Positions 26,137 to 29,123 of a stretch of DNA of 64,000 bases are shown piece after piece. Within the stretch, counting starts at the first letter, position 1. Every line of letters starts with the position of its first letter. The position numbers and the translations under genes were made by a program. The DNA comes from Nitrosopumilus sp. (GTDB lineage: Archaea > Thermoproteota > Nitrososphaeria > Nitrososphaerales > Nitrosopumilaceae). The DNA lies in NCBI RefSeq assembly GCF_025698945.1, contig NZ_JAILWM010000001.1:744001-808000 (forward strand), written 5' to 3'. The notes under the pieces are model-generated. The model ran no database searches, was not told the DNA's origin, and saw only the letters and a program-made list of their open reading frames with translations.

Positions 26137-26211
26137 GCCAATGTAGCTCAGCCTGGTTAGAGCAGCTGATTTGTAATCAGCAGGTCGTGGGTTCGGATCC
26201 CGTCATTGGCT
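26137..26211 (+). tRNA. tRNA-Thr (anticodon TGT)
   Basis: A full cloverleaf can be drawn. The acceptor arms are GCCAATG and CATTGGC, the D arm GCTC/GAGC, and the anticodon arm GCTGA/TCAGC with loop TTTGTAA (anticodon TGT). The variable loop is AGGTC and the T arm GTGGG/CCCGT with loop TTCGGAT. The discriminator base is T (26211). CCA is not encoded and no intron is present. A T-rich tract follows directly and should end transcription. Confidence 0.97.
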
Positions 26212-26287: not shown

Positions 26288-27091
26288 ATGAGTTCAGATG
26301 ATGTAGATTTTTCTTCCCCTAGCAAAAATACAGTATCAGTAAAAAAATCAACTTTTAATGGATTGATTATTGCAGTAATTATAGCAGTTGCAATAGCCGC
26401 ATTTTTTGCAGGATCCTACTCAAGTATTAATTCTAACCAAATTTCTGAAGAAAAATTAGATGAAGCCTTGGCAAAGCTTGAACTCAAAATGTTACAAAAA
26501 CAATTACCATCAGAACAACCAAAACTACCAGTAAAAATTTCAATGGATAATGATCCCATTATTGGAGATCCTGATGCCCCAATTACAATAATAGAATTTT
26601 CTGATTTTCAGTGTCCATTTTGTGCTAGATTCCACATTCAGACACTTCCCTTAATTTTACAAGAGTACATCGATCAAGGCAAAGTCAAACTAGTCTTCAG
26701 AGATTTTCCAATTCAAAGCATTCATCCTAATGCTTTGCCTGCAGCAGTTGCAGCAGAATGTGCAAATGAGCAAGGACAATTCAGAGCAATGCATGACATG
26801 TTATTTGATAATCAAAATGAGTGGAATGATCAAGAAACAGTAATTGCAGTTTCTATTTTTAGCCAATATGCTACTGCAATTCAGTTAGATCAAGAAAAAT
26901 TTGATTCCTGTCTATCAAGTGGAAAATACATTGACGAGATAATAAAGGATCTTGATGATGGGAGAGATTATGGAGTTACAGGCACACCAGGATTCTTTGT
27001 AGGAAATGACAAGTTAGGATATGTAGAGTTGAAAGGAGCTCAGCCATTTGATAGTTTCAAAAAAATTATTGATGTGCAACTAGATGCATAA
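26288..27091 (+). CDS. Membrane-anchored DsbA-like thiol-disulfide oxidoreductase
   Basis: A 267-residue protein with an N-terminal membrane anchor (about residues 24-44), a Gln/Lys-rich stalk and a DsbA/DsbG-type thioredoxin domain outside the membrane. The active site is CPFC (Cys109, Cys112) in FSDFQCPFC. The cis-Pro loop GTPGFFVG follows late in the domain, and the inserted helices contain AAAVAAECANEQGQF-like DsbA features. It should make or rearrange disulfides in exported proteins such as those with paired cysteines in this window. Thaumarchaeotes often carry several copies. Confidence 0.9.
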   Translation: MSSDDVDFSSPSKNTVSVKKSTFNGLIIAVIIAVAIAAFFAGSYSSINSNQISEEKLDEALAKLELKMLQKQLPSEQPKLPVKISMDNDPIIGDPDAPITIIEFSDFQCPFCARFHIQTLPLILQEYIDQGKVKLVFRDFPIQSIHPNALPAAVAAECANEQGQFRAMHDMLFDNQNEWNDQETVIAVSIFSQYATAIQLDQEKFDSCLSSGKYIDEIIKDLDDGRDYGVTGTPGFFVGNDKLGYVELKGAQPFDSFKKIIDVQLDA

Positions 27092-27100
27092 AAAATAACA

Positions 27101-27194
27101 AGCGTTTATTAGACCTAAGCCGGGTCTCAAAATATCGGAATAATGACGAGTAGGCAATGAGCTTTTTCGTCATTGCTAAAGAGAAGTAAATAAA
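27101..27194 (+). promoter_or_regulatory. Structured 5' leader of the DEAD-box helicase with two exclusive hairpins
   Basis: Three complementary pairs are visible. AGACC (27111-27115) pairs with GGTCT (27123-27127). AATGACGA (27142-27149) can pair with TCGTCATT (27167-27174). GCAATGA (27154-27160) can pair with TCATTGC (27170-27176). The last two share the same 3' arm, so only one can form at a time. A TATA-like CATAAAAAATA over the end of the preceding gene would start the message near 27111. The arrangement suggests a temperature- or helicase-sensitive switch; this is inference. Confidence 0.45.
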
Positions 27195-28511
27195 ATGACA
27201 AAATTTCAAGAATTAGGATTAAACGAAAATATACTGAAAGGGATTGCTGATCAAGGATTTGAGGAAGCATTTCCAATCCAAGAGGCTGTAATTCCAGTAT
27301 TACTTTCAGGAAGAGATGTTGTAGGACAAGCACATACAGGTTCAGGAAAAACTGCCGCATTTGCATTATCAATGTTACAAGAGATCAAACCAAAAAATGG
27401 AATTCAAGGATTGATCATGGCACCAACTAGAGAGCTTGCAATGCAGATTTCCGAAGAGATTAAGAAATTTGGAAAATATACCGGAATCAAGGTTGCAACT
27501 GTCTATGGAGGTCAAGGAATGGGTCTGCAGTTAGATATGCTAGACAGAGGAGTAGAGATTGTAGTTGCAACTCCAGGTAGATTAATAGATCATCTCAAGC
27601 GTGGTTCAATTGAATTACGAGACATTACTCATATTGTTCTTGATGAAGCAGACACCATGTTAGATATGGGATTTATTGACGATATTCAGTTCATTTTAGA
27701 TCTTGCACCAGAAGACAGAACAATGTCACTGTTTTCAGCTACAATGCCAACAGAGATTCTAAGACTATCAGAAGAATATCTAAACAATCCAAAGCAATTC
27801 CTACTTGATGCTGATGATTTAAGTGGAGAGGGAATTGATCAATCATACTTAGTCATTAAAGACAGAGACAAATTCAAGTATCTAATTGATTTTATCAAGC
27901 CAGTCAAAGGTCAATGCATTGTCTTTTGTTCAACCAAATACAGAACCAGAGATGTTGCAAAATTCCTACATCAAGAGAAATTTGATGCAGTAGCAATTGA
28001 AGGAGATATGTCGCAACACAGAAGAGAACAATCAATGGGAAAATTCCGCAGTGGTAAAGCAGACATTTTAGTTGCAACAGATGTGGCATCAAGAGGAATT
28101 GATGTTCCAAGAGTAGAATTGGTGATTAATTATGATGTTCCAAACGTGGAAATGGCTTATTTTCACAGAATTGGCAGAACTGCTCGTGCAGGTGCCAAGG
28201 GAAAAGCAATTACATTTGTATCATATTCATCAGTTGGAGACTGGAATCTAATCAAGCGACAAATCAAAGTTCCACTTAGAGATTTGAATGAGGAAATGGG
28301 AATTCAAATTTCAATACCAGATCCTCTAAAGAGACAAACGCCTTCAAGAAGATATGGAGGTCAATCAAGATCCAACTATTCAAGAGGGGGACGTTCTGGA
28401 GGATATGGAAGATCTGATAGAGGTAGCAATCCAAGAGATAACAGAGGTCCACGAAAAAGATACAATGACAAAGACAATAGAAATAGCTACGGTGGACGTA
28501 GTAGATGGTAA
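27195..28511 (+). CDS. DEAD-box RNA helicase
   Basis: A 438-residue ATP-dependent RNA helicase. All family motifs are visible: Q motif with F upstream (EAFPIQEAVIPVLL), motif I AHTGSGKT (46-53), Ia APTRELA, II DEAD (in VLDEADTML, near 152), III SAT, V DVASRGIDV and VI HRIGRTARAG. After about residue 375 the protein ends in a Gly/Arg/Ser-rich tail with RGG and YGGRS repeats, which binds RNA loosely. Related helicases unwind mRNA and rRNA at low temperature. The unusually structured leader suggests self-regulation. Confidence 0.96.
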   Translation: MTKFQELGLNENILKGIADQGFEEAFPIQEAVIPVLLSGRDVVGQAHTGSGKTAAFALSMLQEIKPKNGIQGLIMAPTRELAMQISEEIKKFGKYTGIKVATVYGGQGMGLQLDMLDRGVEIVVATPGRLIDHLKRGSIELRDITHIVLDEADTMLDMGFIDDIQFILDLAPEDRTMSLFSATMPTEILRLSEEYLNNPKQFLLDADDLSGEGIDQSYLVIKDRDKFKYLIDFIKPVKGQCIVFCSTKYRTRDVAKFLHQEKFDAVAIEGDMSQHRREQSMGKFRSGKADILVATDVASRGIDVPRVELVINYDVPNVEMAYFHRIGRTARAGAKGKAITFVSYSSVGDWNLIKRQIKVPLRDLNEEMGIQISIPDPLKRQTPSRRYGGQSRSNYSRGGRSGGYGRSDRGSNPRDNRGPRKRYNDKDNRNSYGGRSRW

Positions 28512-28565: not shown

Positions 28566-28799
28566 ATGCATAGAGGATTTATTTTATTGAATTGTGATCT
28601 GGGGGCTGAAGAATACATTGTTGACGAATTAAAACAAATGCAAGACATTAGCAATGCATACCTTACCTTTGGAGCATATGATGTAATTGCAGAAATTCAA
28701 ACAGAAAACCAAGAAGCCTTTGAGAAAGCAATTGGGATGATTAGGAAACTATCCAGAGTAGTAAGTACAATGACTCTAAATGTAATAAATCCCGAATAA
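28566..28799 (+). CDS. Stand-alone Lrp/AsnC ligand-binding (RAM) domain protein
   Basis: A 77-residue protein that is just the effector-binding domain of Lrp/AsnC regulators, with no DNA-binding part. Seen: a first strand AYxxxNCDLG-like segment, the YLTFGAYDVIAEIQTEN core and the final LSRVVSTMTLNVI strand. Stand-alone RAM proteins form rings that bind amino acids and may feed into full-length Lrp proteins. A second one lies at 37992-38222. It follows the helicase gene closely but has its own spacing. Confidence 0.85.
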   Translation: MHRGFILLNCDLGAEEYIVDELKQMQDISNAYLTFGAYDVIAEIQTENQEAFEKAIGMIRKLSRVVSTMTLNVINPE

Positions 28800-28832: not shown

Positions 28833-29123
28833 TTGCAAAAAATAGATTATGAAGGGACAGTTTGGGTACTAAATAATAACAACCCTCAACCTCTTCTTGA
28901 TCATGCTCTTCATATGATTGAGAGACACGGGGTAAATCCAGATGATATTGTAATTACAGATGTTCCAAAAGTAAAAGTTGGCTCCATAGTTGTAGAAATT
29001 TGGCCATATGAATTAGTTATTGCCAGGGTAAGATCTGTACGTAATGAGTCATTTATCAGCGGTTCAGAATTCACCATAGAATTAAAGTTAGATGAAAATG
29101 GAAATTATGTAGATTATCTTTGA
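28833..29123 (+). CDS. Small cytoplasmic protein, unknown function
   Basis: A 96-residue protein, start TTG at 28833 with a TAGGAG-like ribosome site about 20 bases upstream. The first half is helical (PQPLLDHALHMIERHG) and the second half strands (VKVGSIVVEIWPYELVIARV, FTIELKLDENGNYVDYL). The stop overlaps the next gene start as TTGA, so the two are cotranslated. No family was recognised. Confidence 0.55.
   Translation: MQKIDYEGTVWVLNNNNPQPLLDHALHMIERHGVNPDDIVITDVPKVKVGSIVVEIWPYELVIARVRSVRNESFISGSEFTIELKLDENGNYVDYL

Follow-up and report, generated by a model that had tools for sequence, protein, structure and literature searches.

The gene for a DEAD-box RNA helicase of a Nitrosopumilus species is preceded by an element that is conserved as RNA, is apparently found only at this helicase gene, and in folding predictions takes the shape of one dominant hairpin. 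This family-specific cis-acting leader element, an outer stem (H1) with a second stem (P2) nested inside it, most likely serves feedback control of the helicase, an explanation that leads the others and is nevertheless put forward tentatively. The parts of the locus are listed below in coordinates of the window, i.e. the whole stretch of 64,000 nucleotides that was analysed.

end at 27091: DsbA-like gene, 5' of the helicase leader
27101-27111, + strand: putative promoter element AGCG-TTTATTA, with a TATA-box-like word at 27105-27111 and BRE-like bases 5' of it
27111-27127, + strand: third hairpin, AGACC (27111-27115) with GGTCT (27123-27127), in the interval from the TATA-like word to the predicted start
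27134-27138, + strand: predicted transcript start zone, about 30 nt past the T that opens the TATA-like word, where conservation resumes as ATCGGAATA
27142-27149, + strand: 5' arm of H1, AATGACGA, pairing with TCGTCATT at 27167-27174 (8/8 pairs)
27152-27164, + strand: P2, nested inside H1 in the minimum-energy fold, AGGC (27152-27155) with GCTT (27161-27164) around the loop AATGA (27156-27160)
27154-27160, + strand: 5' arm GCAATGA of an alternative helix, H2, pairing with TCATTGC at 27170-27176 (7/7 pairs)
27167-27176, + strand: common 3' arm TCGTCATTGC, of which H1 uses 27167-27174 and H2 uses 27170-27176
27177-27194, + strand: A/G-rich single-stranded stretch 5' of the start codon, with no clear Shine-Dalgarno
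27195-28511, + strand: DEAD-box RNA helicase gene, 438 aa with an RGG-like tail at the C-terminus (Pfam DEAD 1.8e-51, Helicase_C 8.1e-32)

The nearest NCBIfam model to the helicase is CshA, with a score under the CshA cut-off, and the genome has one close copy of the gene together with seven further, distant matches (23-37% identity, E of 2e-15 or weaker). On the 3' side of the helicase are two small genes, one for a stand-alone AsnC/Lrp ligand-binding domain (28566-28799; Pfam 2.6e-8) and one for a 96-aa product without a Pfam match (28833-29123).

Conservation of H1 as an RNA hairpin

The 59 nt from 27136 to 27194 fold at -15.5 kcal/mol as compared to -7.1 +/- 2.3 kcal/mol in shuffled sequences (z -3.65; 0/200 as good), which points to structure beyond chance, and the whole 103-nt intergenic stretch gave a z of -3.03 against its shuffles. 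The dominant fold is H1 with the nested P2 and the loop AATGA.

Leaders of relatives were collected from 127 helicase loci consisting of the window, 17 genome contigs, 29 loci from a genus search and 80 stretches taken by place. The 106 distinct leaders retained (differing in the last 62 bases) make up alignment A1; they belong to one family and represent 18 of the 21 genera having a helicase match. In three of the 127 loci (L148, L151 and L195) the start codon was placed three bases late, and L148 was kept in the alignment. Six leaders (L149, L150, L152, L192, L193, L194) are misaligned in A1 at the H1 5' arm; these were left unchanged in the paired-cell and shuffle counts and in RNAalifold, and were re-registered by three bases for the energies and for the R-scape-like, event and G.U tests. 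Event tests were run on an independent tree built from the helicase codons.

Across A1, 93.6% of the H1 cells are paired and 17 cells carry double changes, neither of which values was reached in any of 500 shuffles; 7 of the 9 pairs have changed on both sides, and partners slid out of register pair in only 6.6-58%. RNAalifold returned four pairs only, every one of them belonging to H1. On the helicase tree the core of the stem shows seven same-branch compensatory double changes (one at columns 16-57, two at 18-55, three at 20-53 and one at 21-52), the core being alignment columns 16-21, a choice made after the stem ends were seen to vary. One change can be followed from G.C through G.U to A.U across leaders L009, L178 and L181. 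Over all nine pairs, events in the 3' arm kept pairing in 23 of 34 cases (16.3 expected, p 0.005) and those in the 5' arm in 26 of 41 (22.8 expected, p 0.17); for columns 18-21, a subset picked after looking, events kept pairing in 16/17 cases and, in the partner columns, in 16/18. In comparison with the background mutation spectrum, single changes in H1 favoured G.U (18 times) over A.C (5 times; p 0.0078), a bias that points to RNA of the + strand and not to a DNA palindrome. One group of leaders has also co-inserted bases, G in the 5' arm and T in the 3' arm (TGACGGA/TCTGTCA), which results in an extra G.U pair.

No single base pair was significant in an R-scape-like null, where the best listed E was 0.145, for the neighbouring columns 23/26, and the best H1 pair had an E of about 18; covariation support for H1 is therefore collective. 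The nested P2 is paired in 87.5% of cells and was rejected as a covarying helix, showing no covariation beyond shuffles. Pairs of H1 are lost in L157 and L160. Other leaders (L141 and L144, genus g14; L145-L147, genus g15; L024 and L026) keep H1 with the H2 arm and the loop lost or rebuilt, and in L026 GGAAATG can pair with CATTTCC in a different register. Judged by these patterns of change among relatives, H1 is a real RNA hairpin, conserved as RNA. The earlier note's claim of a structured helicase leader is borne out, and the leader does show covarying changes, whose lack the note had named as evidence against it. The comparison with relatives that it called for came out in favour of H1 taken as a whole, although not of any one pair; for H2 the outcome was divided, with column shuffles in its favour and the phylogeny-aware tests giving it no separate support (below).

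A single gene partner

A covariance model of the leader (R1) was searched in 61 genomes and in 400 genomes of the class. All 28 matches below 1e-9 in the 61 genomes sit 0-17 nt 5' of the helicase, with the next match at E=0.042, and these matches together with the fold z of -3.65 mark the leader as structured and as peculiar to the helicase gene. Matches at E<=0.01 occur in 177 of the 400 genomes; 176 of these belong to this family, and the one outsider (G370) matches at E 0.0076. Some family members that possess the helicase have no model match; G100 and G244, with the divergent leaders L122 and L160 (both in A1), are examples. Two model matches each are seen in G126 (on C43 and C158), G048 and G010; a doubled or split assembly is likely for G126 and G048, since two helicase matches occur there as well. 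Rfam has nothing at E<=1 in 27080-27210, and at gathering scores the whole window holds one tRNA, tRNA-Thr(TGT) at 26137-26211, its sole tRNA or Rfam match.

By these searches the element is apparently found only before this helicase gene and looks like a private control element of the helicase, a single target being what self-regulation would give. It would belong to a kind already known, the structured helicase leaders.

Predicted promoter and extent of the leader

The word TTTATTA is present in 95 of the 106 distinct leaders and in variant form in the remaining 11, and its first T is located 35-38 nt 5' of AATGAC in 90/106. AGCG-TTTATTA resembles a BRE and TATA box and would serve as such. 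The position of TTTATTA and the usual archaeal distance from TATA box to start predict a transcript start near 27134-27138, which makes a leader of 57-61 nt (about 58) more likely than the roughly 85 bases first proposed. The predicted start is upstream of 27142, the point beyond which a start had been named in advance as evidence against the leader.

Identity between random pairs of leaders is 78% in the leader core (columns 10-60) and 30% in the adjoining spacer, with 49% at third codon positions of the helicase. The third hairpin, AGACC/GGTCT, exists as a pairing in the sequence but is probably untranscribed: it starts on the last base of the conserved TTTATTA element, its GGTCT is absent from most relatives, and it falls in the unconserved spacer upstream of the predicted start. 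It was rejected as an RNA part for the latter reasons, and is probably promoter spacer DNA with a chance pairing in this genome, outside the transcript. The accompanying statement that most other messages of the region look leaderless found no backing in a crude scan, in which a TATA-like word was present at -36 to -25 in 7 of 44 genes and, likewise, in 7 for a stretch of equal width further upstream.

The start codon region

Past the hairpin the 106 leaders are 65% A and 18% G, and the distance from the end of H1 to the start codon is 19-21 nt in 72 of them. The 16S tail, AUCACCUCCU, which corresponds to the archaeal consensus quoted in PMC7531240, forms a duplex of -2.9 kcal/mol with the window leader; pairing with this tail is weak among the leaders in general (median -3.1 kcal/mol; -4 or lower in 7/106). 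By computation the helicase AUG is about 0.9 unpaired, and H1 pairing goes from 0.99 at 37 C to 0.88 at 70 C. A thermometer acting by melting was rejected on this computed stability and is unlikely; the AUG is predicted to be exposed, and there is no clear Shine-Dalgarno. Known RNA thermometers of the ROSE and fourU type resemble the present case in having a leader hairpin 5' of a possibly stress-related gene; here, however, the stem covers neither a Shine-Dalgarno nor the start codon, and H1 is predicted to stay closed at growth temperatures.

Competing explanations for the leader

The leader was originally proposed to hold one of two hairpins, and as regards the pairings this is correct: H1 and H2 are both perfect, they share the 3' arm, and because both use 27170-27174 they are mutually exclusive. 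A two-state RNA switch, with H1 and H2 both functional and exchanging with temperature or helicase activity, would account for the constant AATGA loop that is otherwise unexplained, and it draws on H2 pairing in 87.5% of cells over 10 column pairs with 18 double-change cells (0/500 shuffles reach the percentage or the count), on a single change carried through all three arms in L178 and L181 with L009 as the G.U intermediate, and on leaders, such as L157 and L163, that fold as H2. The energies speak against such an exchange, since H1 with its nested stem is the lower-energy state in 94 of the 106 leaders and H2 in only 9. The gap between the two is 5.0 kcal/mol in the window (median 4.2 kcal/mol over the 106 leaders at 37 C) and the computed share of H2 in the window is about 2e-6 at 25 C, so that the leader lacks the near-equal stability of two ligand-free states that a bistable RNA switch would show; growing prefixes in the model form P2 and then H1. 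Nor is H2 supported as a helix of its own by the event tests (5' events keep pairing in 41/84, p 0.11; 3' events in 22/54, p 0.47), by its ratio of G.U to A.C (25:16, p 0.075) or by the losses of its arms, which are uncorrelated on the tree (P 0.17-1), and each of the three independent H1 compensations at columns 20-53 came at the cost of the H2 end pair. A balanced two-shape switch is not supported by the modelled energies, exchange between two functional states is rather improbable, and H2 might arise as a minor state in RNAs whose H1 5' arm is engaged elsewhere or missing. A self-remodelling RNA, in which the helicase would open H1 in its own leader and the common 3' arm would drop into H2, altering translation or decay of the message, is likewise improbable; if true, ammonia-oxidising archaea would have in this leader a built-in gauge of helicase activity.

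The hairpin might instead be a plain stability element at the 5' terminus that shields the mRNA from 5'-to-3' exonucleases and leaves the A-rich start region accessible, playing no part in feedback or sensing. A very stable stem (-15.5 kcal/mol at 37 C) that begins some 5-8 nt into the predicted transcript, with nothing sequestered around the start codon, is what such an element would look like. This explanation deserves serious attention and is still unlikely, in that the AATGA loop and its flanks are conserved beyond the needs of a generic stem and the element stands at no other gene. Three AATGA-like words, two direct and one inverted, directly past the predicted start could also be read as transcription factor sites of a DNA operator just 3' of the promoter; the excess of G.U over A.C in H1 (18:5) would be invisible to double-stranded DNA, and together with the co-insertion that adds a G.U pair it leaves the operator very unlikely. 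The leader AUGACG.. might finally be translated as an upstream reading frame that attenuates the helicase, an AUG at 27143 in the H1 5' arm being present in 98/106 leaders and opening a frame of five codons in 56 of those. This leader-peptide attenuator was rejected and must be considered extremely improbable, since the AUG is lost in 8/106 leaders (ACG in 4, TTG in 2, ATA in 2), partly via changes that keep H1 paired (L178, L181, L185), and the length of the frame is not kept, ranging from 3 to over 21 codons.

Feedback by the helicase on its own message is preferred to these because the sole gene partner of the element is a helicase of the kind able to open such stems. The stem-loop begins a few bases past the predicted 5' end and ends about 20 nt 5' of the helicase start codon. 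When the helicase is plentiful the stem would be opened and the message translated less well or decay faster; when the helicase is scarce, or in the cold, where structures harden, the stem would remain closed and the message would be protected or used. Both the direction of this effect and the step acted upon are hypothetical, and a single-target element would also fit a plain mRNA-stabilising hairpin or some RNA-binding protein.

Helicase leaders in sister families

In the leader of the helicase in a sister family (Nitrososphaeraceae in several records) the conserved words are others, namely ACAAARG..ACGGC..CTTCCGT..CTTTTGT. Alignment A2 consists of 19 sister-family leaders that are f8 or f8-like (L305-L308, L311, L313-L317, L319, L320, L326-L328, L027, L029-L031), and in it the candidate pairing of ACAAARG with CTTTTGT is kept in 90% of cells and that of ACGGC with CTTCCGT in 87%, or 83.1% for both together. 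The A2 leader is a lead only, since this pairing is not above that of shuffles (179/500) and RNAalifold finds no stems. The leaders of L322/L323 (f4), L324/L325 (f10) and L329-L331 (f8, genus g29) are different again, with recurring words of their own. The different conserved words 5' of the same helicase gene in sister families are a hint that control of this helicase through its leader may be a recurring theme.

Relation to known helicase leaders

For the cold-induced deaD genes of Methanococcoides burtonii and Thermococcus kodakarensis 5' untranslated regions have been implicated. Both genes are named as cold-shock genes in a review (PMC9800685), and since archaeal deaD genes are so listed, a cold response of the present leader is possible by analogy. 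The likeness is that these too are archaeal DEAD-box RNA helicase genes; they come from other lineages and are likened here by gene type. The E. coli DeaD protein is reportedly autoregulated at two levels, mRNA stability and Rho-dependent termination. The proposed likeness is that of a DEAD-box helicase limiting its own expression via its own message, whereas the Rho-based step is bacterial and the leader here is about 58 nt with a single short stem-loop. CrhR of Synechocystis is described as a helicase that, depending on temperature, regulates both its own transcript and its own protein (PMC3485376); the word UTR is absent from the main text of that account, and no leader element was seen there. 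The likeness proposed with CrhR is again helicase self-control, and the difference is that the organism is a bacterium.

To our knowledge cis-regulatory RNAs have been little described in ammonia-oxidising archaea, and a collection of limited coverage yielded no paper for this lineage. Present once per genome and linked to a single helicase in about 20 genera, the leader offers a clean and testable example of post-transcriptional control among organisms that are central to the nitrogen cycle.
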